Position numbers and translations under genes: made by a program
Source of the DNA: Physcomitrium patens
Taxonomy: Eukaryota > Streptophyta > Bryopsida > Funariales > Funariaceae
Length of the DNA stretch: 64,000 nucleotides
Reading direction: 5' to 3'
NCBI RefSeq assembly: GCF_000002425.4
Contig: NC_037260.1
Location: 15,793,372 to 15,857,371, forward strand
Notes under the pieces: model-generated
Database searches by the model: none
The model's input: the letters and a program-made list of their open reading frames with translations, nothing else
Told to the model about the DNA's origin: nothing
In this document: one piece after another, positions 1 through 46,477 of the stretch
How the letters are laid out: each line of letters opens with the position of its first letter
Numbering within the stretch: the stretch's first letter is position 1

Positions 1-231
1 TGCCTTCGTAATTGGTGCGACTACATCATCATCAAAGTTAAGTTCATCATTCGATGTCAATTCAGATGCTAGCAATTGAGATTCCCCATGATAGTGTACT
101 GGGTACATTTGTAATATCATTTTATCTCTACCCTTCCCAATTGTCAAAGTACCCCAATCCCAATCGTTCTTGGCCTTCACCTAATTAAGCCAGGGTCGTC
201 CCAATAAAAATAGATACGATAAAGTCGAACA

Positions 232-2019: not shown

Positions 2020-2046
2020 CCATGGATAACTACTTATTGATCCGTT

Positions 2047-2970: not shown

Positions 2971-3333
2971 GAGATATGCTAGGCTATTGATAAAATTTCA
3001 TGTGAGTGCTCTTGGTAATTTTCTTAACCGTATATATGTCTAAAATATTAGAGATCGATCAGCTTATGGGTATGCTCGGATATGCCAATAGGCATGCAAC
3101 CATAGCTTAATCCAACTTTATCGATGCTTCCTTTTTAACTTATATTTTTGCTTATTTTACAATGATTTTCTTGTTTACGCTCTCTCTTATCTTTCTTTCG
3201 ACTACCGTGTTTGCTTTATTGTAATGTTCTCATTCTTAATAACCATAATCTTTTATTATATACTACTGAATTTGCTTCATATTTCCCATCTACTCATTCG
3301 GCAATTGATTCCTAATACTCAATGCTATTGTCA

Positions 3334-3352
3334 ATCCTCGATAGCGACGCCA
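3334..3352 (-). other. Primer binding site of element G (tRNA-Asp type, decayed)
   Basis: On the minus strand the bases are TGGCGTCGCTATCGAGGAT, starting three bases after the LTR end. Compared with the expected complement of the 3' end of plant tRNA-Asp there are five differences and every one is C to T or G to A, the signature of cytosine deamination. Identification of the tRNA is from knowledge of the Athila group. Confidence 0.7.
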
Positions 3353-3355
3353 AAA

Positions 3356-4263
3356 TGTAATTATTATTTTACTTATTCTATAAATTTCTTTCAGAATAAA
3401 CCTATATAGGAGAATTCAAACTCAGGGAAAAACTAAGTGCATGAGCTTACAAGTTAGGGTCACTCAATTAACTGTAATCTGGACGACTAAAACACCAAGA
3501 AATACTACAATGCTTTCTTTCAAGAACAATACTCCTTCATCAACTGATAACCACAATGCACAATCTTGCACTCTCAAAAGATTGCTCAAAACACAATAAT
3601 TTCCATCTAACACCAGGAAAACAGACTTCATTCCAACCAATCTGGATCCACACAATTTTTGTAATCACAGACTTCCTCTATACAAAACACACACAACTCT
3701 TAATAAACAACAATCATAATCTTTCAATCATGATCAATCTTCCAATAACTTCTCATATAATTCAATCACATAATACTTCAATTACATAATCAATAATTCA
3801 TGAATCAATCTCTGATTTATTCCATAGACTCACTTCTCAATATTCAAAAACTATCCATTACTATTCAACAACAAAGAAAATAAAGAAAACAAAGAAGTAG
3901 CACCAAGCTTAATCCCAACTCATGACTATCACAATCTCGCCTCTCAATAAACTCCTACAACTCCTATATAATTGCTATTGATTTCTAAATTCTAACCTAA
4001 ATCCTATAATAACCACTTTTAATAACTAATTTAATCATCCATCCTCGTGAACTGACTATTCTATGGACTATTAGTCTATTTTATCAATATCTTATAAAAA
4101 AAAACTAATATCTATTCTACAAAATTCTATAGTAATCTTTTTAACAACCTCTTCTCAAGATAATAATCAAATTATATTCTTCAATCAACTAAAATCTATT
4201 AACATGGCTCTGACCATGTTACTTAGTAAATTATATATTAAGTACATAATTACATTTTTTTCA
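3356..4263 (-). repeat. 5' LTR of element G
   Basis: The LTR starts at TG (3356) immediately outside the primer site and runs to about CA at 4263, where sequence homologous to element A gag begins. It is AT-rich with many short direct A/T stretches and no long open frame. The partner LTR is outside the window, so the outer end is inferred from the F gag junction and may be off by tens of bases. Confidence 0.5.
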
Positions 4264-5023
4264 TATAGTAGCCGAATCACAACATGACAATGTCAATGAT
4301 CATATTTTGTATCAATTTATCCATTTGATTTTGGACAATTGGCTTGTAGCATCAATTGGGATGAATAAGCTCTTATGAATCAATTGTATTGGAATCTAAA
4401 AGATGATGTGAAAAATCTTATTATTATTATTATTATTTAATTTTCAAACACTTAATGAAGATATCAACTAAGATATAAATTGTAATAATTGATTATTTTA
4501 ATGCCATCAAAATCAATACTTATTGACTGAGACAAAGCAATGGAATAAAAATTCGTAATCTATTACTTCAACAAATGTGTTATTTCTACACTTCATTTAA
4601 AAATTTGTAAATTGATGCAATAAGATTTAAACTTCTTATAGTAGTAAAGAAGAAGTATTGACTTGAATAAGGTCTATGCTTGTATTATAGTGAAGAAGAC
4701 CATAAATCTGAAAATTATCTCAAAAACAATTATACAACAAAAATCATGAATACGATCATTTAGGAAAATAAAGATATTCAACTACAATAAAAATTTTATG
4801 GTTGAATATTCTAATATCTCAAGTTCATCAAAATCCATGTCTTTTTATCTAATTTTTTTTATTTTTTTATTATATTTTTATTTCTTAGTCTACAAAAACT
4901 TCAAAGAAATGGCTTATTGAATTCAAAAGCATCTACTTACTTTTTAGATGAGGAATTTTTTACACTTCATAAAAAAAATTTAGTATAAAAGATAAAACTT
5001 GTATATATAGAAAGAATAGATGG
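4264..5023 (+). pseudogene. Relic F gag C-terminal half, zinc knuckle and start of protease
   Basis: Segments match element A by eye: GACAATTGGCTTG near 4333 with A near 16004, the gag end near 4440-4520, a knuckle-like block near 4665-4715 and the protease block with TTTTTAGATGAGGAATTTTT near 4940 (A: the LDEEF region near 16600). All frames are interrupted. It ends exactly at the GATGG duplication where element B begins. The decay is dominated by A/T-increasing changes. Confidence 0.7.
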
Positions 5024-5612
5024 TGTAACAAAATATAAATAAGATATTTTTATTATTAGCACATATAGATAGAGAGTTAGAACCATGTTTGAGAAATTAT
5101 GGAAGTTTTTAGAATTGAGATTAGGTTGGTGGATTAGGTAGGATCCACCAAAAAAACATTCTAGAAAGAGTTTAAGACAATAATCTAAGTAAAGTCTATC
5201 ATGTAACCTTCTAGAAAAGACTTAGGATGGTTACCTAGATAGGACCTACCATGGAACCTTCTAGAAGGAATTTAAGGTATTTATCTAAGTAGGGTTTATT
5301 ATCTAGGAACATTCTAGAAAGTCCAAGGTAATAGAACAAAGTATTAATAGGACTAGCCAAGGCCTTTTCGGGCATCTAATCAACTATGGCTTTGAATCCT
5401 TTCATTTATTTAAATTTGGTATTGCATCATTTTATTTAGTTCTATTCTTTTCTATTTCCGTTTGCTCAGTTTTACCTTTTGTATCCTATTTTGATTAGTT
5501 TTGATTATTTCTCTTCAATTTTGTTCTGGTCAATTTTTCCTTACTTTGTGATAAAGCTTATGTTGTAGTTTTGAAGGATCTTAGATTTTGGAAATAAATT
5601 AGTCATATTTCA
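5024..5612 (+). repeat. 5' LTR of element B
   Basis: Begins TGTAACAAAATA after the GATGG duplication and ends TATTTCA immediately before the primer site. It contains repeated short segments such as 'accttctagaa' and 'gtctaccat'-like units between 5150 and 5330. It is homologous to 30663-31194, whose ends have decayed to TATAAC and TATTTTA. Confidence 0.8.
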
Positions 5613-5613
5613 T

Positions 5614-5625
5614 TGATATCAGAGT
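5614..5625 (+). other. Primer binding site of element B (tRNA-iMet type)
   Basis: TGATATCAGAGT starts one base after the LTR end and matches the complement of the plant initiator tRNA-Met 3' end apart from transitions. This canonical placement contrasts with elements A, C and D, where a similar sequence is displaced by more than 20 bases. Confidence 0.75.
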
Positions 5626-5639
5626 AAGTGTTAGACTAT

Positions 5640-7138
5640 TCTTTGATAGTGTATGAATAGTCATCATCAAATCTAAGGTCAATTCTTGTGATCACACTAG
5701 ATACCATGTTCAGGCTACTACGAGCTATTTTTAAAAAGTCAATTGGAAGGTAAAAAGATATTATATTAGTAGAATTTAGTAGAAAAATTATAACATGGAA
5801 GATATGACAAAGTAATTTTAGATAGAAGCTCAAATACAGCATCTTTTAGACTAGATAGGTACTTTACAAGAATTAATAAAAACCTTAAGAACAAGAAAGT
5901 TGACATTTGTTAGATTGAAATTGAATAAGTCTAATACATATTCTAAAACTTTAAGACAAGAAGATATATAACAATGGCTCTTCAACATGCAGCAATACCT
6001 CTAATGATCTGGAATAAATACTACTAAAAAAATTATATATACAGCCAGCTATTTGAAAGATGAAAAAATTATTTGGTAGCAACATTAAATTCAAAGCTAT
6101 GGAATTCAAGGTAGATTTTGTAATTAAGAGGAGTTTGAGACTGAGTTTAAGAATTAATTTGAACCCATCAATGTAAAAAAGATAGCATGCAATCAGTTGA
6201 AAAATCTTACACAATTTAAGTTAATGCAAGTTTATGTCTCTTGATTCAAGTTTCTATGTCTTCAAATTGGCAATATTTTTGAGGTAGAGATGATGGATCA
6301 ATTCCTACAAGGTTTGAAACTTGAGATCCACTGAGATGTGAAACTAAAGAATAAAAAAATATTTGAAGAAGCAATTTGGATTGCAGCAAGGATTGATGCC
6401 ATATATTTCAGAAATCATAGAGTATGACATATAGTATAAAGTCTTATATCGCTATCTAATATTACAGCACAACAACCAATGTCAATGGAAATTGATGCCC
6501 TACAAGGATCATTGATACCACAAAGATAATAAATATTGGTACAAAAAGAATTATATTTTTATTATTGAAAATTAGGCCATTACATTGGAAGTTGTCTAAA
6601 ACATCAAAATTCAAGCACCAACAAGACAAGGTAGGTTTATAGTCTCAAAACTCACTAAGTCCATAATGAGTCAGAGCAGGAATATGAGGCTTCCTAGTAA
6701 AGGCACCAATCGCAAATATTAGAGATAGCTACTGTCCCTTAGAGACAAATGGCATGACCTCAAACAACTATAAAAAGAGTCAATTGGTGCATCTAACGAG
6801 ACTATTAAGAGCACAACCATGTCAAGTGCTTGTAGATTGTAGCTCTACAAAAAAATTATATCTTGATTGAAATTGCCAATCAACTTCAAATTAAAACTAA
6901 AAAAATCAATAAAAGAAATATATACCTTATAAATGACCAAAAAAATACATTGAATGAGACATTTGAAGAAAAATCCTAGAGGTTGACTGACACCTATATT
7001 TTAAGAGAGAAGTTCAAAGTAACAAAGCTAAAATATTATGTTATCCTTTATATGCCATAATTAAAAATAAAATGTAAATAAGTTGATTGAATAGTAAAGA
7101 CAATCTTCTTTAAATATAGTCGACACATCATGACTCTT
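5640..7138 (+). pseudogene. Element B gag and protease (decayed)
   Basis: Reading across frames gives gag-like text: a stretch with QEDI-QWLFNMQQYL near 5960, a stretch around 6140-6250 with FEPINVKKIACNQLKNL, and IFEEAIWIAARIDAIYF near 6360-6410, all typical of the gypsy gag capsid region. Near 6555-6600 a knuckle remnant (KLGHYIGSCLKHQN) follows, then a protease remnant (LLRAQPCQVLVDCSSTK) near 6800-6850. Numerous stops interrupt it. The piece ends at the element D insertion (TSD at 7134-7138). Confidence 0.7.
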
Positions 7139-7575
7139 TGTCAAGGACAAGAACTCGATAAAAAAACAATTTAGACAAGTGAGCCTTCACTCAAAGAGAG
7201 GTAACAAAATATATATAAACAAGTATATATATTGAAAGAGAAACTGGAATGGCTATTGCCAAAAGACAAGAAAACTAGAGATCCTTGAAACTAGACTAGA
7301 AGCAAGAAAGGAGTTGACAAGAGTGAAGAAGCCTTCACTCTTGTCTCTATATATATTATCTAACTACGGGCTATGTGGCGACGTTCTATAGGACCTCCAA
7401 TATGTGTTGACTTTGTAGGACACATGCCTTGACTTACAAGGCAAGTTTTTCTACATGTGGGCCACATAGTTAGCTTGATCTTCAAGCTAACAACATGTGT
7501 GGCACATGGCCAACTTGTTGACCACGTTTCTAATCCAAAAAGTCAATTAAAGATACATATGAAATCAAAGCAGCC
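7139..7575 (-). repeat. Truncated 3' LTR of element D
   Basis: Aligns with 9072-9500 of the 5' LTR from TGTCAAGGACAAGAACTCGA to AATCAAAGCAGC, then jumps into protease sequence. The missing part is the U3 outer end (about 115 bp). The bases at the junction resemble both parents (TAGGAAG in the LTR, TAGGATG in protease), so a microhomology-mediated deletion is likely. Confidence 0.75.
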
Positions 7576-7850
7576 TCTATAGGAAGGGTTTCATGAGTAA
7601 TATCTCCAGAAGATAATGGACGACCATCTATGACTTCTACATGAACAGGTTTAGTTTTCTTTACTAAAAATATGTTATGTCTTTTAGTAAATTCTTCATC
7701 TAAAAAATACGCTGAGGCTCTTGAATCTAACAAGGCAGAGACTTTGTAATGTTTAGGTCCTAAAATAACATTTAATGTAAAACAAGGAGAGGGCTCTGAG
7801 GAGAGAATAGGACCTTTACTAGAAGTTGTACAAGGTTCCAGCCACACGGT
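7576..7850 (-). pseudogene. Element D protease fragment
   Basis: An open stretch shares its start (LEPCT) and the segments KPVHVEVIDGRPLSSGD with elements C1 and C copy 2. The catalytic triplet context is LLDSRAS instead of the DSGAS present in A and C, so the active-site glycine is replaced by arginine. The frame runs into deleted-junction and host LTR sequence after THETLPIEAA. Nonfunctional. Confidence 0.75.
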
Positions 7851-7854
7851 CCCT

Positions 7855-8859
7855 ATTGTAGCTGGACAAACTCGTTTTCCGACATATTATCTTCTTTCAC
7901 AGCCATACTCCTCATTTTGTGATTGCGTCATTTCTTTGGACAATGTTAAGCAGTGTGCTTTGGTTCTCCATAATATAAACATAATCCTCTTGACGACGAC
8001 GAGTCTTTTCTTCCTCAGTAAGAGGTTTGAAACGTATTGCATCAATTTGCATATCCTCTACTTTCGAATGTATGTGTTGAAGAAATGTTGGTGTTGCTAT
8101 TGAATTCTAGTAACGTTGAGGTCCACTTGTATGGTTCTCAGATCGAAATTCAAAAAGATGATTGTTGCACTTCACAGCAAAGTCAATTGCTTGACTCAAT
8201 GTTTGAGGATCAGGTAAGTTTAGCATTAATTTTTTTATCTCATATTGTAATCCGTAGAGAAATTGGCTAATAAGTGCACAATCATCCTACTTGATATCAG
8301 TTGCAAGTTGTCAAAATTGTGAAGCATATAACGTTACTGATCGATTGCCTTCTTGTAAAATACGGATCTTATTGGTTGCAACACAAATTACATCATGTTC
8401 TCCATACATGGATCAAAATTCCACCAAAAAAGCCTCTAGATTATCCAATATTGGATCTCGTCGTTCAAGAAAAGACAAAAACCACGATAGTGCTGAACTT
8501 GAAAGAAGCGTACCAATGAATCTAACTTGTGATCCTGAAGTTTGATAGCTTTGGAGTTGAAGTTCAATCACAAGTTACACTTGATTAATAAATCCTCGAA
8601 ACTTGGATCTGGTGCCATCAAACTTCTCAGGTAGGATAATTCTTGGTTCTCTAACATTTGAAGGGCGCTCCACTATAGGAGAAAGGACATGGTTTGGTGC
8701 AGATGTTGAAGCAGCTCCAACCATTTCTATATCTTCACTTCTTGTCAATCTTGTTGCTCCTTGTGGTGGTAAATTGAGTTGATGCATTGCAAGCATTAAC
8801 TCCCTCAATTGCTCTTGCATTTGTGCCATTGCACTCTTCATTTCAAGAAGTTCTGCCAT
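7855..8859 (-). pseudogene. Element D gag (broken)
   Basis: The N-terminal 94 codons (8859-8575) are open and start MAELLEMKSAMAQMQEQL, a near match to C copy 2 gag (MAELVEMKSAMAQ). The capsid region and the zinc knuckle (a CCHC remnant near 7960-8000 on the minus strand) follow with several stops and frameshifts between 8575 and 7880. It lies 200 bp downstream of the D primer site, as in C. Confidence 0.75.
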
Positions 8860-9058: not shown

Positions 9059-9069
9059 ACTCTTGACAA
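9059..9069 (-). other. Self-complementary primer site of element D (one mismatch)
   Basis: On the minus strand TTGTCAAGAGT begins two bases after the LTR end. It pairs with ACTCTTGTCAA in the D LTR at 10 of 11 positions. The equivalent site in C pairs at 11 of 11. The mismatch fits decay after D lost activity. Confidence 0.6.
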
Positions 9070-9071: not shown

Positions 9072-9632
9072 TGTCAAGGATAAGAACTCGATGAAAAAAT
9101 AATTCAAACAAGTGAGCCTTCACTAAAAGAGAGGTAACAAAATATATATAAATAAGTATATATATTGAAAGAGAAACTGGAATGGCTATTGCCAAAAGAC
9201 AAGAAAACTAGAGACCCTTGAAACTAGACTAGAAGCAAGAAAGGAGTTGACAAGAGTGAAGAAGCCTTCACTCTTGTCTCTATATATATTATCTAACTAG
9301 GGGCTACGTGGCAACTTTCTATAGGACCTCCAATATGTGTTGACTTTGTAGGACACATGCCTTGACTTACAAGGTAAGTTTTTCTACGTGTGGGCCACAT
9401 AGTTAGCTTGATCTTCAAGCTAACAACCTGTGTGGCACATGGCCAACTTGTTGACCACGTTTCTAATCCAAAAAGTCAATTAAAGACACCTATGAAGTCA
9501 AAGCAGCGTCTAAGAAGTTTTTAGGAAGCTTTTATATTAAATATTATAGAATTAACTTACTTTTACCTACTTTTACTTACTTCTACCTATTTCTATATGT
9601 AATTATTAGCTTACATGATTATGGCCATGACA
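9072..9632 (-). repeat. 5' LTR of element D (complete, 561 bp)
   Basis: TGTCAAGGATAAG to GGCCATGACA, close in sequence to the C LTRs. On the minus strand it contains a TATA-like run and the same 13-bp inverted repeat GACAAGAGTGAAG/CTTCACTCTTGTC as C, located at about 9255-9285. Confidence 0.8.
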
Positions 9633-14728: not shown

Positions 14729-14977
14729 CATACTGTCATGGACATACATTGGAAGATTCTTCGAATATTCTTCTAGAATATTCTCTAAAGATTCTCTAAA
14801 GATTCCTTTAGAAGATTCTAGAAGATTCTTAGAATATTCCCTAAAGATTTTTTTAGAAGGTTCTAGAATATTCTGATAGATTTTAGAAAGTTGCTCGAGA
14901 AGTTTCCTAATTAGTAGAAGTTGTTGGAGAAGCGTCCTAGTTAGTGGAAGTAGCTCGAGAAGCTTCCTATTCAGTAG

Positions 14978-14987
14978 TATATATAGG
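14978..14987 (+). promoter_or_regulatory. TATA box of element A LTR promoter
   Basis: TATATATAGG. A start about 30-32 bases downstream, as usual in plants, falls at 15008-15010, the exact beginning of the CAGTCTCGACAA segment. Confidence 0.75.
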
Positions 14988-14988
14988 A

Positions 14989-15018
14989 GTCGAGGCTGAA
15001 GGGTTCTTCAGTCTCGAC
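14989..15018 (+). repeat. Inverted repeat at the expected transcription start of element A
   Basis: GTCGAGGCTGAA (14989-15000) and TTCAGTCTCGAC (15007-15018) pair at 11 of 12 positions with a 6-nt loop. The same design with unrelated sequence is present in the C and D LTRs. Confidence 0.8.
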
Positions 15019-15020
15019 AA
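15009..15020 (+). other. Proposed self-primer (5' end of element A RNA)
   Basis: CAGTCTCGACAA is the perfect reverse complement of 15148-15159. It begins 31 bases after the first T of the TATA box, so it should be the first dozen bases of the transcript. Confidence 0.65.
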
Positions 15021-15147
15021 CACATCTTTTGGAGTTCTAGCTCACCTTTCTGGTGTTGTTCTTATACTCATCTGTTTAATCTAGTTCTGCCACTTCTTCT
15101 TGAACTTCTTGTTAGATTTCAAGTCTGTATTTTGTGTCCGTGACAGT

Positions 15148-15159
15148 TTGTCGAGACTG
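15148..15159 (+). other. Proposed self-complementary primer binding site of element A
   Basis: TTGTCGAGACTG starts two bases (GT) after the LTR end. The 12-bp pairing with the predicted RNA 5' end, and the two-base gap that integrase end-processing would remove, match the organisation of Tf1-type self-primed elements. No TGG-starting tRNA site is present at this position. Confidence 0.65.
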
Positions 15160-15168
15160 CATTTTCAC

Positions 15169-15181
15169 TAGTATCAGAGCT
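15169..15181 (+). other. Displaced tRNA-iMet-like site in element A
   Basis: TAGTATCAGAGCT matches the iMet primer-site consensus at about 11 of 13 bases but begins 23 bases past the LTR. The C and D elements keep an equivalent site. Confidence 0.55.
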
Positions 15182-15448
15182 AGTTCCTTCTTGTTAGAGA
15201 GTGGATTACCCCTCTTCTTGAAGGTGTGCTAGTGTTTTAGAGGTTGCGGATTACCCTCCTCTAAACTGATATCTCTTCTTTCTCAATATTGGAGCCTTAT
15301 TCTTCTTGGAGAGAGTGGATTACCCCTCATCTTGGAGTCTTAAGGCGTTTTAGAGGTTGCTGAGAACTTTCCTCTGAACCAATATTGTCCTCTTGTCAAA
15401 ACTCTTTTTTCTTCTTTTTGAAGGTTAGCCGAAGGTTAAGACGTTAAA

Positions 15449-16450
15449 ATGGCTGAAAGTTTGGAATCCAAACTAGACACCATCATAAATGCTCTTGCCT
15501 CGTTGTCACATAGGACAACAGAGATCGAAGGAGTCATGATAGGACTCCATAACAATAGAGCATCTGGAGTAGCACCATCTAAAGCATATCAGCCTCAAAC
15601 TTCTGCGCCAGAAGAAGCAGTTCTACCTCCATTTCAACAAGATCGAGTAGTCCTACAACGAAAGGAGCCTCGAATTAGTCTTCCGGATAAGTTTGATGGA
15701 ACTCGTTCCAAGTTTCGAGGTTTTGTCAACCAAATCAGGTTGATAACAATTTTACAGCCCAAACGTTATCCGACGGACGAAGCGCGTGGTGGGCTTGTTG
15801 GAACCTTGCTTACAGCACAAGCTCTGTCTTGGTTTACTCCCTTGTTCGAGAAGCGATCGCCAATCCTGAGCAACTTTGAAACGTTCTTGGAGGCGTTTGC
15901 AGAAGCATTTGGCGAGCATGATAAAGTTCGATGGGCTACAACAAAGATCCGATCGCTACGACAAGGAACACGCTCTGCATCAGTCTATGCCTCGAATTTC
16001 AGACAATTGGCAAGTGACATTAATTGGGGTGAAGAGGCGTTGGTGAGTCAGTTTTATTGGGGCTTGAAGGATGATGTGAAGGACTTGCTGTTATCTCTTC
16101 CTTATCCTCAAACGCTCAACGAAGCTATTAGCCAAGCTGTAAAGTGTGACAACCGCCTATTCCAGCGTCGCCAAGACCAACGTCCAAGACACCAAATGAC
16201 TCGTTACGACGTGACTATGTTTGCAAATAGCTTAATCTCACATTCGAAGGCAACAGACATGCAAATCGACACGGCGCGTGTCCGATCTCTTACTCCAACA
16301 GAGAAGAAACGGCGTATGGAGGAAAGGTTATGTTTGTACTGTGGAGAAGAAGGTCACAAGGTTGGAAATTGCCCCAAGAAGCAAAATTGGCACCCTGTCA
16401 AGACTAGAAGTGCGATGATTCCGAAAAACGACGACGCCCAACCACAGTAG
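15449..16450 (+). CDS. Element A gag (intact frame, 333 aa)
   Basis: Encodes the structural protein that packages element RNA into virus-like particles. The ATG at 15449 starts MAESLESKLDTIINALASL, a helical N-terminus. A capsid region of the retrotransposon gag type runs at about residues 75-230 (KFDGTRSKFRGFVNQI, TALSWFTPLFEK-like core). A CCHC zinc knuckle CLYCGEEGHKVGNC is at 295-308, followed by a basic tail. The frame ends TAG at 16448-16450. Pol is open in the -1 frame from 16408, so gag and pol overlap by about 40 nt. The knuckle and the conserved SKFRGF segment are shared with C copy 2 gag. The gag frame is open although pol is damaged. Confidence 0.9.
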   Translation: MAESLESKLDTIINALASLSHRTTEIEGVMIGLHNNRASGVAPSKAYQPQTSAPEEAVLPPFQQDRVVLQRKEPRISLPDKFDGTRSKFRGFVNQIRLITILQPKRYPTDEARGGLVGTLLTAQALSWFTPLFEKRSPILSNFETFLEAFAEAFGEHDKVRWATTKIRSLRQGTRSASVYASNFRQLASDINWGEEALVSQFYWGLKDDVKDLLLSLPYPQTLNEAISQAVKCDNRLFQRRQDQRPRHQMTRYDVTMFANSLISHSKATDMQIDTARVRSLTPTEKKRRMEERLCLYCGEEGHKVGNCPKKQNWHPVKTRSAMIPKNDDAQPQ

Positions 16451-19400
16451 GAACCGTGCGGCTGGACAATCTAATATCACGACACCAATCAGGTTCCTCC
16501 TTCTCTGTCCAACCTGCCCGTTGTTTTACAATTCCTTTGTTTTTAGGCCCTCAAAAACAAAAAACTTTAGCTTTATTGGATTCGGGGGCATCTACTTGTT
16601 TTTTAGATGAAGAGTTTGCTAAACGCCATAAGATCCGTTTAGTACAGAAGTCCAAACCTGTTCACGTAGAGGTGATAGATGGACGACTCTTATTGTTAGG
16701 CAACGTTACCCACGAATCAGAACCTATAGAAGTGGTGTTTAAGGACCATAGTAGTCACATTATTTTTAATATTATTAGAACCCCATCAAGCCCTGTTATC
16801 CTTGGTCTTTTTTGGTTAGAAGATCATAATCCGTCCATTGATTGGAGGCTACGAAGGATAACATTTCCTGAAAAAAATAATAATAAACCTGTTCGTAGAA
16901 CCTACATGAAGAAATCCATGTTTATTGGAGCAAGAGCGTTCCTAAGATCGTCCAAGGAAGGCGCACCATTTGTCATTTATGCAGCTCCAACTAGCGGCGA
17001 GAATATCTCAACATCGAATATATCAGAACAATATAGGGATTTTGAAGACGTGTTTCAGAAGAAGAACGCCAATATACTGCCGGAACATCGACCATATGAT
17101 TGCGCCATAGACTTAGAGGAACGAGCGCAACCACCTTTTGGTCCAATATACAACCTATCGCAGATGGAGTTGGCAGAATTGCGGAAGTACATCGATGAGA
17201 ATCTAGCCAAGAATTTTATTCGACATTCAAAGTCGCCAGTTGGAGCACCAATCCTATTCGTGAAGAAAAAGAATGGCTCACTCCGGATGTGTGTGGACTA
17301 CCGAGGACTCAACAAGGTGACCAAGAAAAATCGCTATCCCTTACCTTTGATCTCCGGCCTCTTAGATCAACTTAGACGTACAAGGATTTTTACAAAGATT
17401 GATTTAAGAGGAGCCTACAACCTTGTGCGAATCAAAGAAGGAGATGAATGGAAGACAGCCTTTCGTACAAGGTATGGCCATTTTGAGTACAATGTCATGC
17501 CTTTTGGTCTTACCAATGCTCCAGCGGTCTTTCAGCATATGATGAACGACATCTTTCGGGAGTACCTCGATGACTTTGTTGTCATCTATCTGGATGATAT
17601 TTTGATATTTTCCAAGAATGAAGAAGAACATGAGAAGCACGTTTGTTTGGTTCTTGAAAAACTACGCGAACGAGGACTCTACGCCAAGTTGGAGAAGTGT
17701 CAATTTCACCAGAATGAGATGGAATTTTTGGGCTTCATTGCGACTACAGAGGGCTTGAAGATGGATCCAAAAAAGGTAGAAGCAATTATATCTTGGGAAG
17801 TTCCGAAGACGGTTAGAGATATTCAGTATTTTCTTGGATTTGCTAACTTCTATCGGATCTTCATCAAGAATTATTCTCAAGTTGCTGCACCACTCACGCG
17901 TCTAACAAGCAAAGATAAGCTCGAATGGAGATCACAAGCAGCAAAAGCATTTCAAGATCTTAAGACGGCATTCACTACGGCTCCAATTTTGGTATACCCT
18001 GACTTTGCAAAGGCTTTCTATTTAGAGACCGATGCTTCAGATTTTGCTTTTGGGAGCTGTGCTTTCACAGATGGGCATAGACAAGAAGCTTCACCCAGTT
18101 GCGTTCTATTCACGGAAGTTCTCTGCTGCTGAGATCAACTACGAGATCCACGACAAAAAGCTGCTTGCTATAGTGGATGCCTTCTAAGAGTGGCGTCACT
18201 TCCTCGAAGGAGCTGCACATCCAGTGACTGTTTATACGGACCACAAGAATTTGGAGTACTTCATGACAGCTCGAATTTTGAATCGTCGTCAAGCTCGATG
18301 GAATATGTCTCTATCACGATTTGACTTTATTATGACCTACCGCCCTGGAAAACAGCAAGGATTATCTAACGCATTATCGAGGAGATCGTATCTTGCGCCA
18401 AAGGCTGGAGAAGCAGCGTTTGATCAACAATGTATAACATTGTTGAAACCAGAAAAATTCAGGATTTTTGCTACTGTTGCCACTATCGATGACGGCTTCC
18501 TCAGCGAGGTACGTACTGTGACCATTGAGGATTCTATAGCTCTTGACATCAAACAACGTGTCGATAATGACAAGTTTAAGGTGGAGGGAGATCTTCTGTA
18601 TTTTGAGGAGCGGTTGTATATCCCGAAAGGACCAACTCGACTCCGAGTACTTCAATCTCGCCACGACTTTCCAGCTGCAGGACATTTTGGATTCAACAAG
18701 ACTTTGGAGCTCATTTCACGAGATTTTTGGTGGCCCCAAATGTGGAAGGATGTGAAGGAATTTGTCCTTTCTTGTGATGTTTGTTCAAGATCCAAGATCC
18801 CTCGACATCGTCCGTATGGACTTCTCCAGCCATTGCCTATTCCGCACCGACCATGGTCTTCAGTTTCTATGGACTTCATTACGGACCTACTGCCATCGAA
18901 TTCATTTAACAGCATCTTTGTTGTGGTGGATCGATTTACAAAGATGGCGCATTTCGTGCCTTGCAAGAAAACATCGTCAAGTGAAGACACCGCAAGACTC
19001 TTTCTTGATAACATATATCGTTATCATGGCCTACCAGATGATATTGTGTCGGATCGAGGTACTCAGTTTGTATCCAAGTTTTGGAGGTCCCTCTTTGAGA
19101 TATTGAAGGTGGATATTAAGCTCTCTTCGGCTTTTCATCCTCAAACTGACGGTCAAACGGAGCGGGTGAATCAAGTTTTGGAGCAATATTTACGATGCAG
19201 CATCAACTATCAACAAGATGATTGGACTGCATATCTACCGCTTGCTGAGTTCGCATACAACAACACTCTTCATGCGTCAACTCAACAAATACTATTCTTC
19301 TCCAACTACGGATACCACCCCAAGCTCGATTTATTGAGTTCTTCAGCAAATAACAACCCAGCAGCTGAAGGATTTGTGAAGCAACTATCGGAGCTTCAAG

Positions 19401-19927
19401 CGACGTTGAAGCTTCAATTGTAATCTGCCCAAGAGAGTTACAAGGCATCTGTAGATAAATATCGAAATGAGGCGCCTACTTTTAAAGTTGGAAGTAAAGT
19501 ATGGCTTCTTTGACGGAATATCAAGACCAAGCGGCCATGTGACAAATTGGACTATCGGAGATTAGGGCCATTTGTTATCGAGAAGCAGATCAATCCGGTG
19601 GCATATCGTCTGGAGTTACCAGCTACTATGAAGGTACATCCAGTCTTTCACGTGTCTTTGTTGGAACCTTATCGAGAGTCAGCTTTTCCCCAAAGAGTAC
19701 AAAGTCCGCCACCAAGTATCGAAATTGAAAACCATGAGGAATACGAGGTGGAAAAGGTACTAGATTCACGGCATAATAGGAGAAAATTGGAGTATTTAGT
19801 GCATTGGAGTGGATACGACATCAATGAACGAACGTAGGAGCGTGCCGAAAATCTTGCCAATGCACCAAAAAAGGTACAAGAATTTCATCAACGATATCCT
19901 CATAAACCTAAGCCGATTCAACGATAG
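16408..19927 (+). pseudogene. Element A pol: protease, RT, RNase H, integrase, chromodomain (broken)
   Basis: Domains in order: protease with LLDSGAS near 16577; reverse transcriptase with YLDD at 17587-17598; RNase H with ETDASDF near 18030; integrase with an HHCC finger (HDFPAAGH ... CDVCSRSK, about 18662-18800), then MDFITDL, SDRGTQF and a QTDGQTERVNQ block for the D,D,E triad; a chromodomain with EYEVEKVLD and LEYLVHWSGY (about 19738-19870) that would steer integration to modified histones. One extra T near 18048 shifts the frame, and stops occur at 18185 (TAA), 19421 (TAA), 19511 (TGA) and 19835 (TAG), mostly explained by C-to-T or G-to-A changes. Gag-pol expression would need -1 frameshifting. 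The integrase reads like the sushi/Tf1 side of the chromoviruses. Confidence 0.92.
16423..16429 (+). promoter_or_regulatory. Candidate -1 frameshift site between gag and pol of element A
   Basis: GAAAAAC is read in gag as G-AAA-AAC. Slipping back one base enters the pol frame, which from here (EKRRRPTTVGT) resembles the C pol start (GKRIRPATIGT). The C element has GGAAAAC at the same distance (seven codons) from its gag stop. Confidence 0.4.
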
Positions 19928-20053
19928 CTTCTTGCTGAAGCTTGCTCATCAAGTAGCATAAAAAGGGAGGAGGGTACTTCCAAAACCCATAATTCGATAG
20001 TGTAGAACTTTGTTAGCAACTATAGTTTGCTCTTATCATTTTAGCCTTTGGAC

Positions 20054-20401
20054 ATGGATAGTCAAGATACTACACTTGTTATGTCATCTCAAGCGACTAG
20101 CTCACGAAGACGACCGCGAGATGAAGAACCGCCTGCACCACGACGACGTCGGAGGATACCGAGCAACAGATCGCTATTAATTGTATTTGAGGTCGAGCCT
20201 GCCTACGACGGTCAGCCAGAAGGTGTGTTTCGAGGACAGTTTCACAATGAAGACACAGAAGTCCACGCTTGGTCAGAGGTTGAAGGTGTTGGTCACTACT
20301 GTTGGCTCCAAGGGCCGATGAATCATTTGCCTCGCGAACAACAATTGGAATTCATAGCGGATGTGATGCGACAGATTTTTATTTTCTTGCGTTGGTATTG
20401 A
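20054..20401 (+). CDS. ORF3 of element A: conserved small protein of unknown function (115 aa)
   Basis: An intact frame starts at ATG 20054, 127 bases after the pol stop and about 50 bases before the purine tract and 3' LTR. The N-terminus is very basic (RRRPRDEE, PRRRRRIP). The C-terminal half aligns with ORF3 of both C elements: GHYCWLQGPMNHLPREQ here against GHYRWLRGPINHLRREQ in C1, with further matches upstream (LLIVFEVE against LVILLEVG) and downstream (EFIADVMRQI against EYVANTIRRI). No signal peptide, membrane helix or zinc motif is visible, so it is not an envelope gene. I do not recognise the family. The basic arm suggests nucleic-acid binding, by inference only. Confidence 0.75.
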   Translation: MDSQDTTLVMSSQATSSRRRPRDEEPPAPRRRRRIPSNRSLLIVFEVEPAYDGQPEGVFRGQFHNEDTEVHAWSEVEGVGHYCWLQGPMNHLPREQQLEFIADVMRQIFIFLRWY

Positions 20402-20436
20402 CTAATAACAACATTGCTTCTCGGAGACCTCGAAGT

Positions 20437-20451
20437 TAGAAGAGGAGGTGA
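20437..20451 (+). other. Polypurine tract of element A
   Basis: AGAAGAGGAGGTGA directly precedes the 3' LTR, as needed for plus-strand priming. Confidence 0.8.
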
Positions 20452-20884
20452 TGTCATGGACATACATTGGAAGATTCTTCGAATATTCTTTTAGAATATT
20501 CTCTAAAGATTCTCTAAAGATTCCTTTAGAAGGTTCTAAAAGATTCTTAGAATATTCCCTAAAGATTTTTTTAGAAGGTTCTAGAATATTCTTAGAAGGT
20601 TCTAGAATATTCTGATAGATTCTAGAAAGTTGCTCGAGAAGTTTCCTAATTAGTAGAAGTTGTTGGAGAAGCGTCCTAGTTAGCGGAAGTAGCTCGAGAA
20701 GCTTCCTATTCAGTAGTATATATAGGAGTCGAGGCTGAAGGGTTCTTCAGTCTCGACAACACATCTCTTGGAGTTCTAGCTCACCTTTCTGGTGTTGTTC
20801 TTGTACTCATCTGTTTAATCTAGTTCTGCCACTTCTTCTTGAACTTCTTGTTAGATTTCAAGTCTGTATTTTGTGTCCATGACA
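20452..20884 (+). repeat. 3' LTR of element A (433 bp)
   Basis: Matches the 5' LTR with about eight transitions and one 21-bp tandem duplication ('aaggttctagaatattctt' unit near 20575-20615) that explains the length difference. It ends CCATGACA before CATAC. Confidence 0.95.
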
Positions 20885-20889
20885 CATAC

Positions 20890-21184
20890 CTCTTGATCGA
20901 GGTGCCCCCTTTTAAATAGAATTATTTCCTCAAGCCAAACCTGTAAGTTGATCAATTTATCATCTAGGACCAAATGAACTTAAAGAGTTGCAGAAGAAAT
21001 TCGAGAAATATTTGGAAAAAAGTTTCATTCAAGAAAACACATCACCATAAGAAGCACATGTACTCTTTGCACCTAAAAATGATAGTGGACTTTGACTTTA
21101 CATCGACAATCAAAGCCTCAATAAGCAAACTATTAAAAATAAATATCCACTTCTATGTATAGATGATTTTCTTTACTAACTTTA
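20890..21184 (+). pseudogene. Element B reverse transcriptase, first part
   Basis: Directly after the A target duplication the sequence reads IPLDRGAPF, then IYHLGPNELKEL, FIQENTSP, HVLFAPKNDSGL and LNKQTIKNKYPL across two frames, i.e. the start of gypsy RT. It ends at the C1 target duplication CTTTA (21180-21184) and resumes at 28104 with FSKLDL, showing that C1 interrupts one continuous RT gene. Confidence 0.8.
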
Positions 21185-21736
21185 TGTCAGGGCCATAATC
21201 ATGTAAGCTAATAATTACATATAGAAATAGATAGAAGTAAGTAAAAGTAGATAAAAGTAAGTTAATTCTATAATATTTAATATAGAAGCTTCCTAGAAAC
21301 TTCCTAGACGCTGCTTTGACTTCATAGGTGTCTTTAATTGACTTTTTGGATTAAAAACGTGGTCAACAAGTTGGCCATGTGCCACACATGTTGTTAGCTT
21401 GAAGATCAAGCTAACTATGTGGCCCACACGTAGAAAAACTTGCCTTGTAAGTCAAGGCATGTGTCCTACAAAGTCAACACATATTGGAGGTCCTATAGAA
21501 CCTCGCCACGTAGCCCCTAGTTAGATAGTATATATAGAGACAAGAGTGAAGGCTTCTTCACTCTTGTCAACTCCTTTCCTGCTTCTAGTCCAGGTTCAAG
21601 AGTCTTTAGTTTCTTGTCTTGTGGCAATAGCCATTCCAGTTTCCTTTTAATATACCTACTTGTTTACATTTTGACTTATTATATCGAGATAGCCTTTTTA
21701 TGTATATTTTCCCTCATCGAGTCTTTGTCCTTGACA
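21185..21736 (+). repeat. 5' LTR of element C1 (552 bp)
   Basis: TGTCAGGGCCATAATC to GTCCTTGACA. TATA box TATATATAG starts at 21529. The inverted repeat GACAAGAGTGAAG (21539-21551) / CTTCACTCTTGTC (21556-21568) is perfect over 13 bp with a 4-nt loop. The proposed RNA 5' end ACTCTTGTCAA is at 21560-21570, 31 bases after the first T of TATA, the same spacing as in A. Confidence 0.95.
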
Positions 21737-21738
21737 GA

Positions 21739-21749
21739 TTGACAAGAGT
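21739..21749 (+). other. Proposed self-complementary primer binding site of element C1
   Basis: TTGACAAGAGT begins two bases (GA) after the LTR end and is the perfect reverse complement of 21560-21570. A displaced iMet-like site TAATATCAGAGCT follows at 21757-21769. Confidence 0.65.
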
Positions 21750-21947
21750 ACACTTATAATATCAGAGCTTTGTTTTTCTTGAGTGAGAGTGGATTACCCC
21801 TTTCTCTTGACAAGACATAAGCGTATTAGAAGTTTGCGGATTACCCACTTCTAAACTGATATTGTTCTTAGTACCTTCTTTGTTATCAAGTCTTTCTTTT
21901 CTTTTGTCTTGAGCAGTATCAAACAAATTTTTCTTCTTAGTGTCATT

Positions 21948-22951
21948 ATGGCAGAGCTTGTTGAAATGAAGAGTGCAATGGCACAAATGCAAGAGCAAAT
22001 GAGAGGGTTAATGCTTGCGATGCATCAACTCAATTCACCAACACAGGAAAGAACAAGAATAGCAGGAAGTGAGATATAGAGATGATCGAAGCTGCTTCAA
22101 CATCTACAACAAATCACGTTCCTTCTCCAATTGTATAACACCCTGTAAGCACTAGAGAACCAAGAATTGCCTTACCCGAGAAATTTGATGGTACGAGATC
22201 AAAGTTTCGAGGGTTCATCAATCAAGTACAATTGGCAATTGAACTTCAACCGCAAAGCTATCCAACTCCAGGATCACAAGTCAGGTTTATTAGCACTCTA
22301 CTTTCTGGTTCTGCATTATCATGGTTTTCGTCTTTTCTTGAACAACGAAATCCAATATTGGATAATTTGGAAGCTTTTTTGGCGGAGTTTCGATCTATGT
22401 ATGGTGAACACAATACAACTCGTATTACAACAAATAAGATCCGAATTCTGCGACAAGGAAATCGCTCAGCAACACTGTATGCTTCATAATTTTGACAACT
22501 TGCAATTGACATCAAGTGGAATGATGCTGCACTCATCAGTCAATTTCTTTATGGATTGCAATACAAAGTAAAGAAATTGATGCTCAACTTACCTGATCCT
22601 CAAACTTTGAGTCAAGCAATCGATTTTGCGGTAAAATGCGATAATCGACTTTTCGAATTTTGATCTGAGAATCATTCACGGGAACCTCAACGTTATTACT
22701 CAATGGCAACATCAATATCTTTGCCAAACGTACATTCGGAAGTAGAAGACATGTAAATTGACGCGGTACGTTTTAAACCCCTAACTGAGCAAGAAAAGAT
22801 TCGTCATCGTCAAGAAGGATTATGTTTATATTGCAGAGAACCTAAGCACACTGCTCAAAATTGTCCAAAGAAGCGACGCAACTATAAAATGAGGGGTACG
22901 ATGGTCAAAGAAAACAACATGTCGGAAAACGGATTCGTCCAGCTACAATAG
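21948..22951 (+). pseudogene. Element C1 gag (broken)
   Basis: Starts ATG at 21948 (MAELVEMKSAMAQMQEQM) and matches the open gag of C copy 2. A one-base loss near 22065 and stops near 22135, 22486, 22661 and 22754, each explained by C to T, destroy it. The capsid segment KFDGTRSKFRGFINQVQL and the knuckle (CLYC here continuing with an R for G change) are recognisable. Ends TAG at 22949-22951 with pol open in the -1 frame. Confidence 0.9.
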
Positions 22952-22956
22952 GGACC

Positions 22957-25900
22957 ATGCAGCTGGAACCTTGTACAATTCCTAATGAAGGTCCTATCCT
23001 CTCCTCAGAACCCTCTCCTTGTTTTATAATAGACTTATATTTAGGACCTAAGAATTACAAAGCCTCTGCTTTATTAGATTCAGGAGCCTCAGCATGTTTT
23101 TTAGATGAACAATTTGTTAAAAGTCGTAAAATACCTTTTGTACAGAAACCTAAACCAGTACATGTAGAAGTCATAGATGGTCGTCCCTTGTCTTCTGGAG
23201 ATGTCACTCATGAAACTCATCCTATAAAAGTAACAATAGACGGTCATGATAGCTACATAGCTTTTAACATAATTAAATCCCCGTCCAATCCAGTTATTTT
23301 AGGTTTATCCTGGCTAAAAAAATATAACCCTTGAATAGATTGGAATTCGTGTAAACTTGACTTTTCTCAAAGCATTATTAATAGTTCTACTAACCAAGTA
23401 AAAAATTATAAGTCTAGTGTAGTAAAACCGTACTAATAGGTGCAAAAGCATTTATACACGCAGCAAAAGAAGGATCAACTTTTGCTATTTATGCTGCACC
23501 TATTTCTGAAAACGTAAAGACTTCAAGTAGCATTCCAAGTCAATATCAAGAGTATGAAGACGTTTTTGAGAAAAAAAATGCAGATATTCTTCCTGAGCAT
23601 CGCCCATATGATTGTTCAATCGACCTCAAGGAAGGAACTTAGCCACCATTTGGACCAATTTACAGTTTATCGCAAGATGAGATGGTTGAACTCAAGACAT
23701 ATATTGACGAGAATTTAGCGAAGAATTTCATAAGCCATTCAAAATCTCCAGCAGGAGCTCCAATTCTATTCGTAAAGAAAAAAGATGGATCTTTACGAAT
23801 GTGTGTTGATTATCGAGGACTCAACAAGATCACAATCAAGAACAGGTATCCATTACCTTTGATATCAGGACTCCTTGACCAGTTGAAACAAGCTAAGATC
23901 TATACAAAAATAGATCTAAGAGGAGCATATAATCTAGTATGGATCAAAGAAGGAGATGAATGGAAGACTGCATTTCGAACCAAGTATGGACATTTCGAAT
24001 ATAATGTCATACCCTTTGGACTCACGAATGCACCAGCTGCTTTTTAACATCTCATGAATGATGTATTTCGTGAATTCTTAGACAATTTTGTCGTCTGCTA
24101 TCTAGACGATATCCTGATCTATTCTAAGAACGTCGAAGAACATGAAATACATGTTCGTCAAGTATTACAAAAACTTAGAGTTGCAGGATTGTACGCCAAG
24201 ATGGAAAAGTGTGTATTTCACACTACTCAAGTTGACTTTTTAGGATACATCATTTCAAATGATGGTCTCATGATGGATTCTAAGAAAGTCCAAACAATCA
24301 TGGATTGGAAGATTCCAAGGACAGTAAGAGATGTCCAATGTTTCTTGGGATTTGCCAATTACTATCGGATCTTCATCAAAGATTTCTCACGAGTTGCAGC
24401 TCCACTTACATGCTTGACTAGTAAAGATAAATTCCAATGGAATCGAGAAGCGGAAGTAGCATTTGAAGCCTTGAAGACATCGTTTGTCTCTGCACCAGTC
24501 TTATATCGTGTTGACTTTTCCAAGGCATTTTTTATGGAAACAGATGCATCAGATTTTGCCTTGGGTGCAATTATATCACAAATGGGAACAGATGACAAAC
24601 TTCATCCGATAGCGTTTCATTCAAGAAAATTCTCGGCAGCCGAGATCAATTATGAGATCCACGAGAAAGAACTTCTTGCGATCGTGGATTCCTTTCAAGA
24701 ATGGTGTCATTATCTAGAAGGCGCTTCTAGTCCAGTCACTGTATATACAGATCACAAGAACCTCGAGTATTTCATGTCAGCACGCGTGTATCAAGGACAA
24801 AGACTCGATGAGGAAAAATATACACCAAAAGGCTATCTCGATATAATAAGTCAAAATATAAACAAGTAGGTATATTAAAAGGAAACTGAAATGGCTATTA
24901 CCACAAGACAAGAAACTAAAGACTCTTGAACCTGGACTAGAAGCAAGAAAGGAGTTGACAAGAGTGAAGAGGGCTTCACTCTTGCCTCTATATATACTAT
25001 CTAACTAGAAGCCACATGGCGACGTTCTATAAGACCTCCAATATATGTTGACTTTCTAGGCCACATGCCTTTGCTTGCAAGGCAAGTTTTCTATGGATGG
25101 ACCACGTAGTTAGCTTGTTCTTTAAGCTTCCAACATGTGTGGCACATTGCTAACTTGTTGACCAAGTTTCTAGCCTAAAAGTCAACTATAGACTCTTGTA
25201 AAGTCAAAGCAGCGTCTATGAAGCTTCTAAGAAGCTTCTCTAGAAGATTTTACACAATTAACCTACTTTTATCTACTTTTACATACTTTTATCTATTCAT
25301 ATAGGTAATTATATGTATGTCCGTGACAGCGTGTTGAATCATCATCAAGCTCGTTGGATTATGTCTTTGTCAAGATTCGAGTTCATTATCACTTATTGGC
25401 CAGGAAAACAATAAAGTTTGTCCGATGCCCTATCTAGCATTCTTATTTTGCACCAAAAGAAGGAGATGCAGCTTTTGAGCAACAAAGAACGGTCTTCTTG
25501 AAATCGGAGCAATTTCATCTCCGAGCAATGAAATCAACATTGACTGTTGATTCAACTTTACTCAAGCAAATCCAGTCCAGTATGTCCTCAGACCCTCTTG
25601 TTCATGATATCAAGAATAATTCTTCCAAGTCTCATGATCCTTCTAAGTTCGAGTTCAAGAATAATCTATTATATTTTGAAGGACGCCTATATGTTCTAGA
25701 AGGAGAAGCACGTTTATGTGTTCTTCAAGCACGTCATGACTTTCCAACAGCAGGGCACTTTGGATATAATAAGACTTTGGAACTCATATCAAGAGATTTT
25801 TGGTGGCCACAAATGTGGAAGTCAGTCAAAGACTTTGTACAATCATGTGATATTTGTTCAAGATCAAAAATTCCTCGTCATCGACCTTACGGACTTCTTC

Positions 25901-26988
25901 AGCCATTACCTATACCAGAACAACCATGGTCTTCTGTTTCTATGGATTTCATCACAGATCTTCCAAGCTCAAGATCTTATGATTTTATATTTGTGATAGT
26001 AGATCGTTTCACCAAGATGGCACATTTTGTGCCATGTACAAAATCTATCACAGGTGAAGAAACAGCTAAGCTTTTCATTGATAATATCTATCGCTATCAT
26101 GGATTACCTAAAGATATCATATCGGATAGGGGAATTCAATTTGTGTCAAGATTTTGGAGGACCCTTTTCAAGATTTTAAAAGTGGACATAAAGCTATCTT
26201 TGGCTTTCCATCCTCAAACTGATGGACAAACAGAGCGCGTAAACCAAGTCTTGGAGCAATATTTAAGGTATACTATCAACTACCAACAAGATGATTGGAC
26301 AACCCTTCTGCCATTGGCAGAGTTTGCTTATAATAATACGATGCATTCTTCCACGCAACAAACACCTTTCTTTGCCAATTATGGCTATCATCCACGACTT
26401 GATACTTTTGATTTTTCAAAAGTTGATAATCCTGCAGTAGAAGATATGGCAAATCGGTTGTCAGAGTTACATGCAATAATGAAGACGCAATTGAAGGAAG
26501 CTCAAGAACGACAAAAGATAAACGCAGATCTATATCGTAAGGAGCAACCACAACTCAACGTGGGTGATAAGGTATGGCTACTTCATCGCAATATCAAGAC
26601 TACTCGACCTTGTGACAAGTTGGACTATCGTAGGCTTGGCCCCTTTTCTGTTTCTGAACAGATCAACTCAGTTGCATATCGGTTACATCTACCGGAGTCA
26701 ATGAAGATCCATCTTGTATTCCACGTATCTCTTCTTGAACCATATAATACAGTGGATATACAAAGAAGAAGACAAATGCCACCGCCTCCTATAGAAGTAG
26801 ATAATAATGAAGAATTTGAGGTGGAAGAGATATTAGACTTAAGGCGGCGCCGAAATAAGCTGGAATATCTTTTTTATTGGCGCAGATATGATATTAGTGA
26901 ACGCACATGGGAGCCATCAAGGAATCTAGCAAATGCATCAATTAAAATCCAAGTTTTTCATCAACAACATCCATCAAAACCAAGATGA
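22957..26988 (+). pseudogene. Element C1 pol, interrupted by a solo LTR
   Basis: Protease (LLDSGAS near 23075), RT ([10 protein letters not shown] near 24095), RNase H ([11 protein letters not shown] near 24540) up to FMSARV, then the solo LTR 24789-25328, then RNase H continues (LNHHQARW at 25337), integrase (HDFPTAGH finger near 25737, CDICSRSK, MDFITDL, SDRGIQF, QTDGQTERVNQ) and chromodomain (EFEVEEILDL, TWEPSRNLANA, ending 26988). Stops: TGA at 23332 and TAA at 25412 are shared with copy 2; TAG near 23640 and TAA at 24045 are private. A one-base loss near 23430 is also private. The integrase-chromodomain part (25498-26988) is one open 496-codon stretch. Confidence 0.92.
24789..25328 (-). 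repeat. Solo LTR (540 bp) inside RNase H of C1
   Basis: A diverged relative of the C LTR in reverse orientation, TATCAAGGACAAAG to GTCCGTGACA (first dinucleotide decayed from TG to TA), flanked by GCGTG at 24784-24788 and 25329-25333. It contains the TATA and hairpin of its family with a different loop (CCCT). It adds an alien tail to the RNase H frame. The same insertion, same length and same target duplication, is at 48138-48677. Confidence 0.95.
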
Positions 26989-27082
26989 AAATCTCTCTTA
27001 TAAAAGAGACAAGATTGAGGTAAGATAACATTCAATTTCCTATCCTTGTTTGTAACTTCTTTGCATTTGTGACGCAAATTAG

Positions 27083-27505
27083 ATGGAGAGCCAACAACCA
27101 GCGGATTCAACTCAAGAACCTTCGTTTGCAGACTTGTCGGACGAGACATTACGATTGTCACAACCTTCGAGATGACGCAATCGAGATGAAGATCTTCAAG
27201 AACGACATGTTCTTCCTCGAATAGATGGTGAGATACAACGCGTTTGGTATCACGATTTGGGAAGGGACTCTCGATGTTTGGTGATTTTGCTAGAGGTAGG
27301 AACAACTCCTGATGGTGTTCCGAATATTCTATTCGAAGGAAGTTACGAAGGCCTCAACAATGATCAAATAACTGGGTGGTCTTCCCGCCCTGGTATGGGA
27401 CACTATCGATGGTTGAGAGGCCCTATCAATCATCTTCGAAGAGAACAGAGATCAGAGTATGTGGCGAATACAATTCGTCGCATCATAGATTTCTTCAACA
27501 TATGA
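27083..27505 (+). pseudogene. ORF3 of element C1 (140 codons, one stop)
   Basis: Starts MESQQPADSTQEP at 27083, about 95 bases after the pol stop. A single TGA near 27173 (CGA in copy 2) breaks the frame; the C-terminal 82 codons (27257-27505) are open: LVILLEVG, then GWSSRPGMGHYRWLRGP and NHLRREQRSEYVAN. The match to element A ORF3 is limited to protein-level motifs, which implies past selection on the protein. Followed by purine tract AAAAGGGGGGG near 27533. Confidence 0.75.
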
Positions 27506-27546
27506 TGACCACTCCTCGTGGAACTCATCTCTAAAAGGGGGGGTAA

Positions 27547-28098: not shown

Positions 28099-28103
28099 CT
28101 TTA

Positions 28104-45368: not shown

Positions 45369-45372
<4 letters not shown>

Positions 45373-45919: not shown

Positions 45920-45960
45920 TTACCTCCCCTTCTAGAGACGAGTTCCACGAGGAGCGGTCA

Positions 45961-46383: not shown

Positions 46384-46477
46384 CTAATTAGCATCACAAA
46401 TGCAAAGAAGTTACAAATAAGGATAAGAAATTCAATGTTATCTTGCCTCAATCTTGTCTCTTTTATAAGAGAGATTT

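Follow-up and report, generated by a model that had tools for sequence, protein, structure and literature searches.

Predicted self-priming of reverse transcription in a Ty3/gypsy chromovirus of Physcomitrium patens, with a third complementary segment upstream of the predicted RNA start

The analysis of a 64-kb stretch of Physcomitrium patens DNA (referred to here as the window) led us to conclude, with considerable confidence, that one of its LTR retrotransposons, element A, is a Ty3/gypsy chromovirus that uses the opening 11 nt of its own RNA as the primer for reverse transcription. The segments involved are P, at the predicted 5' end of the RNA, and S, its complement next to the 5' LTR (Table 1). 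In the proposed mechanism, transcription would begin at A15010, with the first T of the TATA box lying 32 nt upstream. The RNA 5' end (P) would pair with S, 2 nt beyond the LTR. The RNase H of the element would then release P after nt 11, and synthesis would proceed leftwards from P across GT into U5. The primer-binding site of LTR elements is regenerated when plus-strand synthesis copies the primer, as established for retroviruses. In element A, this synthesis would copy the self-primer and remake S in each cycle as the complement of P, so that S would track P across families; a binding site that changes in step with the start of the element's own RNA from one family to the next is what self-priming predicts.

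Table 1. Positions of the features of elements A to D in the window.
Element	Feature	Position	Strand	Remarks
A	LTR retrotransposon	14734-20884	+	LTR pair and target duplication
A	Target site duplication CATAC	14729-14733 (left), 20885-20889 (right)	.
A	5' LTR	14734-15145	+	412 bp, TG...CA
A	3' LTR	20452-20884	+	holds P copy at 20749-20759
A	TATA box TATATATA	14978-14985	+
A	U arm GTCGAGGCTGAAG	14989-15001	+	upstream half of start-site hairpin; loop 15002-15005
A	P, predicted self-primer AGTCTCGACAA	15010-15020	+	predicted RNA 5' end 15010
A	S, predicted primer-binding site TTGTCGAGACT	15148-15158	+
A	Stretch 3' of S, candidate pretzel duplex arm	15165-15188	+	predicted pairing with 15030-15056
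A	tRNA-Met-like site TAGTATCAGAGC	15169-15180	+
A	gag	15449-16450	+
A	pol region	16456-19927	+	protease, RT, RNase H, integrase, group I chromodomain; broken here
B	5' LTR	21185-21736	+
B	Target duplication CTTTA	21180-21184 and 28099-28103
B	U arm GACAAGAGTGAAG	21539-21551	+
B	P ACTCTTGTCAA	21560-21570	+
B	S TTGACAAGAGT	21739-21749	+
C (B family)	S TTGACAAGAGT	51720-51730	-	its P at 51899-51909
D (decayed B family)	S TTGTCAAGAGT	9059-9069	-	P at 9247-9257, one mismatch

Pfam searches with element A detected Retrotrans_gag (2.2e-13) and RVT_1 (1.3e-40) as well as protease, RNase H and integrase. The domain order is that of Ty3/gypsy elements, with a C-terminal chromodomain that was identified by eye in the translation rather than with a profile. 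The aromatic cage of group I chromodomains (Y, W, Y, with the residues taken from PMC3350952) is present in A and in four of the related contigs described below (L001, L003, L004 and L009), and element B has F at the first cage position. Judged by these domain features, element A likely belongs to the Tcn1 clade. The copy in the window is broken, for example by a stop codon inside the chromodomain. Its leader contains a duplication (15187-15266 vs 15302-15379, 79% identity) with GAGAGTGGATTACCCCTC-like sequence, parts of which are common to B and L005.

A previous sequence-only reading of this DNA had reported that P, taken as the 12-nt segment CAGTCTCGACAA (15009-15020), is the perfect complement of TTGTCGAGACTG (15148-15159), that the latter begins 2 nt past the 5' LTR, and that 15009 lies 31 nt past the first T (14978) of the TATA box. 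These observations were confirmed, the 2-nt spacer being GT. The exact P 12-mer was found in the 64-kb window only at P, at S and in the 3' LTR (20748-20759). To estimate the expectation by chance, the LTRs were dinucleotide-shuffled and searched for the longest stretch complementary to the 20 bases that follow the LTR. A complement of at least 12 nt appeared in 2 of 20,000 shuffled A LTRs, and the 11 nt of element B, which the previous reading had not covered, were equalled in 42 of 20,000. When other 20-mers of the window were compared with the unshuffled LTRs, 8 of 5,641 attained 12 nt for A and 19 of 5,641 attained 11 nt for B, indicating that the bare match, position ignored, is rare but not astronomically so. 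The complement in B comprises exactly 11 nt counted from the A of CA, and this makes 15010 the likely RNA start in A, with a primer of 11 nt, on the basis of the TATA distance and the CA initiator. The complementarity in A reaches 15159, opposite the base preceding this predicted start.

The layout of A is repeated in element B with different P and S letters. Element C carries the same P/S pair as B, and in element D the P:S pairing has one mismatch and the duplex was absent from the prediction. Elements B (21185-28098) and C (45369-52284) are 97% identical, and each carries a nested solo LTR in the identical position (24791-25312 in B, 48154-48675 in C). A genome search for its junction with at most 3 mismatches gave two places, both of them in the window. 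Since the B/C alignment does not continue beyond the elements and their flanking sequences are different, one is probably a transposed copy of the other, even though pol is interrupted by the nested LTR.

A scan of bacterial genome assemblies provided nine contigs with related integrases (L001-L009), evidently eukaryotic contaminants, and scans of viral contigs with the A RT and an A/B integrase alignment found no relatives. Contig L005, from a cyanobacterial assembly, is a relative of A (88% integrase identity over 200 aa), and its P, S and core U letters are the same as in A, U being a third segment described below. Seven of the nine contigs came from an uncultured Trichormus assembly; we take the cyanobacterium Trichormus azollae to be the symbiont of the fern Azolla, so that the elements of this assembly are probably derived from that fern. 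P is AAGGCGAACAA in L003 and L004 and AAGGTGAACAA in L009, with S matching exactly. The most distant contig, L006 (46% integrase identity), comes from a soil alphaproteobacterial assembly and appears to be fungal. It has its own, different 13-nt P/S pair 1 nt past the LTR, with P 55 nt after the nearest TATA-like sequence (TATATGG), a start geometry unlike that of the other elements. Contigs L002 and L007 stop too soon past the integrase to reach the start region, judged by the spacing in L003, and L008 has about 8 kb (188-8001) inserted between two halves of one integrase frame; these three contigs are uninformative on P, S and U, and L001 shows only U and P. In L003 (701-4967) and L006 (3436-6593), integrase and chromodomain are followed by a single LTR and then by a gag or gag-like frame, an order for which tandem elements sharing an LTR, one-LTR circles and assembly collapse are the alternatives.

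Comparison of these elements revealed that P and S change together between families, as the self-priming layout would lead one to expect. Because the letters of L005 are those of A and the letters of L004 those of L003, there are just four distinct P types (A, B, L003 and L009). Over these types P:S is Watson-Crick at 44 of 44 positions, and 7 of the 11 positions vary, each on both sides. When the P of A or B was paired with the S of another type, or the reverse, only 4-8 of 11 positions matched; the fern-type L003 and L009 cross-pair at 10 of 11, the difference being one compensated pair. In L084, a relative of B, one G.U is found in P:S and one in P:U. The P/S complement measures 11 nt in B and C and at least 11 nt in L003, L004, L005 and L009. 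The LTR end reads TGACA, then GA or GT, then TTG in six leaders (A, B, L003, L004, L005 and L009), with S constantly at +2, and in the same six the distance from TATA to the predicted A(+1) is 31-32 nt. Integrase usually removes two bases, which corresponds to the 2 nt between LTR and S. Altogether, the covariation constitutes strong sequence evidence for self-priming in moss and in probably fern-derived contigs, with a sharp predicted start site.

A first search of the genome (470,438,890 bases in 101 contigs) listed 3,417 candidate copies of A and 2,842 of B. From each set we scored 40 and fetched the best 30. The 11-nt P:S core is fully Watson-Crick in 25 of the 30 best A copies and perfect in 27 of the 30 best B copies. 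Other copies lacking the complementarity had been named as a finding that would speak against self-priming; among these A copies, five are without the perfect core that the remaining 25 keep. The fetched copies are the best matches, selected partly through the P and S segments, so their agreement is weak evidence, and being the most similar ones they show merely that the window copy is typical. A pattern search with TTG[GC] gave 57 hits, and the 30 loci fetched comprised B-family variants (some with worn U arms, e.g. L083 and L090), S-less LTR ends and unrelated places; as the base following TTG is set by this pattern, S at those loci was not taken as evidence. The search with TTGT[AGT] resulted in 154 hits vs 3 for its control. 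The 98% identity of the scored A copies to the query, together with the eight window 20-mers matching the A LTR over at least 12 nt, would fit a short inverted match that arose by chance or inheritance and was retained only through copy recency. The layout recurs, however, with other letters in B and in the fern-type contigs, and we rejected this explanation, to which we assign a negligible probability, as already contradicted by the P:S covariation.

RNA folding predicted the P:S duplex in most of the leaders. The pairing probability at the centre of P:S was 1.0 in B, L003, L004, L005 and L009, and 0.98 in C. In element A it was 0.65, vs a mean of 0.96 with the rest of the leader shuffled, indicating that A's own leader competes with P:S. 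The minimum-energy fold of A is without the P:S duplex, a result that counts against the simplest picture. For pretzel-type duplexes flanking P:S, the predicted 3' duplex of A (15165-15188 with 15030-15056) has -21.1 kcal/mol, and none of 500 shuffles was as low. As for the 5' duplex, shuffles as low numbered 0 of 500 for L009, 2 of 500 for L004, 17 of 500 for B and 31 of 500 for L003. In these predictions both duplexes are clear in no leader, and L005 is without either.

Family A also has a perfect 12-nt tRNA-Met complement that begins 23 nt past the LTR. The sequence TGGTATCAGAGC, the 12-nt complement of the 3' end of a host tRNA-Met(CAT) with CCA added (one gene read out of 19 places found by pattern), is exact at this site in 25 of the 30 best A copies, the window copy being TAGTATCAGAGC. 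Exact TGGTATCAGAGC located 10 nt after exact 11-nt S was found at 297 genome places, and the reversed-pattern control gave 0. These figures would suit a model in which tRNA-Met primes at this site and S and P serve another role. Priming at +23, however, would make the next LTR longer by 23 nt, and the 3' LTR of A ends TGACA, with the target duplication directly behind it. Pattern searches for LTRs prolonged as far as the tRNA site (one past CAC, one past CA) gave 0 hits, vs 197 for the internal continuation used as positive control; these searches detect exact sequence only, and about 9/16 of random junctions are visible to each. Furthermore, the site is broken in all 30 best B copies, where CAA or TAA replaces TGG and the tRNA CCA end could not pair. 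It is also missing in L003, L004, L005 and L009, in which no tRNA-Met match with fewer than 5 mismatches of 12 was found within 100 nt of S. A tRNA-primed plant chromovirus would have its tRNA complement within 0-5 nt of the LTR, a place that in A is taken by S. Priming by tRNA as the main route was rejected on the LTR-end geometry and the 0 extended-end hits, and we regard it as highly unlikely.

Dual priming, with P the usual primer in family A and tRNA-Met an occasional one, or a site left over from a tRNA-primed ancestor, would account for both sites being exact at the 297 places and for the core TATCAGAGC common to A and B. We consider this unlikely, though worth keeping in mind. The extended LTR ends were not found in the exact-sequence searches, within the visibility given above; the stretch with the tRNA site is explicable as a duplex arm with 15030-15056; and L005, the closest relative identified beyond this genome, does not have the site. 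For the tRNA-Met site we see three options: it is a remnant, it serves as an additional primer site, or it belongs to a pretzel arm. A perfect but displaced site in a single successful family may preserve the trace of a change between two kinds of primer, or make such a change possible.

Besides P and S, a third complementary stretch, U, was detected 3' of the TATA box and 5' of the predicted RNA start; like the displaced tRNA-Met site, it had escaped the previous reading. U pairs with nt 1-9 of P and with the 3-4 bases preceding the start, and leaves out the last two primer bases (nt 10-11), which S covers. The U:P hairpin has 13 bp and a 4-nt loop in A (with one G.U) and B, 12 bp and a 4-nt loop in L001, L003 and L004, and one mismatch in L009. 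Over the four P types, P:U is Watson-Crick at 34 of 36 positions, with one G.U and one mismatch. The arm is present in both window families and in the five plant-type contigs of five that include the start region (L001, L003, L004, L005 and L009). In the fungus-like L006 U was not found, and the matching letters are not repeated there. Of the 30 best B copies, 29 have a perfect U:P, and the A pattern with one G.U is retained in 23 of the 30 best A copies. In one of the 30 B copies U and P are altered together with S unchanged, which agrees with a constraint on U:P, although this is one copy only. Stems of at least 13 bp were found in 2 of 1,000 shuffled LTRs of A and 1 of 1,000 of B. TATA-linked AT-rich hairpins are common in the window, and for this reason hairpins were judged by GC-containing stems and covariation.

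Being upstream of the start set by the TATA rule, U would be absent at the RNA 5' end and present at the 3' end together with the R copy of P. A tentative and weakly held possibility is that U folds the 3'-end P into a 12-13 bp hairpin lock that keeps this copy off S. The lock would leave R from nt 10 onward free for strong-stop DNA, which, having been primed by P, would itself not contain the P complement. If true, the lock would solve a problem peculiar to self-priming, in which there are two primer copies and only one is useful, and the hairpin would let the element tell the useful 5' copy from the useless 3' copy. We entertain with similar reserve the idea that a three-part system of U, P and S is common to self-primed plant elements. 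Alternatively, U could have a promoter role, or it could circularise the RNA through 5' P and 3' U, in a way comparable to the bipartite primer-binding site of Ty3. In Ty3, as in A, a second primer-complementary stretch lies in the 3' U3, but different parts of tRNA-Met pair with the two Ty3 sites (PMC5371799, in the sections drawn on here), whereas U and S would compete for the same 9 nt of P. U could also reflect passive repair of a quasi-palindrome, since template-switch repair could keep it matched to P; a snap-back origin of U was considered as well, without ranking.

The fact that U matches S and pairs with P goes beyond what priming alone requires, and would favour a role of P:S and U:P in packaging, dimerisation or promoter symmetry, the primer being something else. 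We judge this very improbable, given that S lies at +2 throughout and also pairs with nt 10-11 of P, which U leaves unpaired, both being requirements of a primer site, and that the LTR edge is without any other primer site. Self-priming by P stays our preferred reading of element A.

Self-priming in plants has been predicted before. The sequence-only reading had stated that no plant example was known, and this part of it fails: the parts of Neumann 2019 (PMC6317226) used here describe a prediction of self-priming for 12% of plant LTR elements, including most of the Tcn1 clade (moss, club moss) and TAR copia elements, and cite earlier self-priming proposals for Houba and Osr-1. The self-priming interpretation itself gained from the covariation, the constant +2 position of S, the TATA distance and the folding of most leaders. 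PMC6317226 defines a self-primer site by a complement of 10 bp or more located within 0-5 bp of the LTR. Such complements were found past the 5' LTR in A, B, C, L003, L004, L005 and L009, and element D, with its one mismatch, falls outside. In the consulted parts of Novikova 2010 (PMC2864245), SM-Tcn1 is described as having no tRNA or self-primer site. Novikov 2012 (PMC3350952), in the portion cited here, ties plant group I chromodomains to Tcn1-like elements of non-seed plants and to the algal Chlamyvir, the exceptions being two Selaginella elements of the Galadriel clade with group I chromodomains. The plant Tcn1 elements resemble A in being chromoviruses of non-seed plants with a group I chromodomain and a predicted self-primer site at 0-5 nt, but the sections of these accounts covered here (PMC6317226, PMC2864245) leave the U arm and a +23 tRNA-Met site unmentioned.

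The Tf1/sushi elements (Tf1, Tf2, Tj1 and Tosmo; PMC10085805, PMC4600332) are like A in that the RNA 5' end complements an LTR-adjacent site and in having a chromodomain, and their pretzel-type adjacent duplexes would be only partly matched by those predicted for the moss and fern-type leaders. Self-priming of Tf1 in fission yeast is reported there as demonstrated, whereas in A, as in the plant papers cited here, it is predicted from sequence. The passages of these two accounts considered here describe no arm upstream of the RNA start, unlike A, which has U. In P. patens, RLG1 is reported with 5,092 complete copies and as expressed (PMC7466625, in part), the expression being reported for protonema, and A or B may be RLG1. 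RLG1 and RLG2 are, like A, abundant expressed moss gypsy elements, RLG1 with a chromodomain; the excerpts of that account relied on here give no priming mechanism and no mention of a PBS. No description of the U arm was found in the literature searched, which excluded most subscription papers, among them three original Tf1 papers. Self-priming of A is of an already predicted kind; what is new, as far as that search went, is the U arm together with the tRNA-Met site at its displaced position.

Elsewhere in the window, the region 36000-41200 is GC-rich and contains exon-like frames on the minus strand. These frames may resemble the plant DNA-repair protein XRI1, but Pfam found nothing in the four that were submitted.
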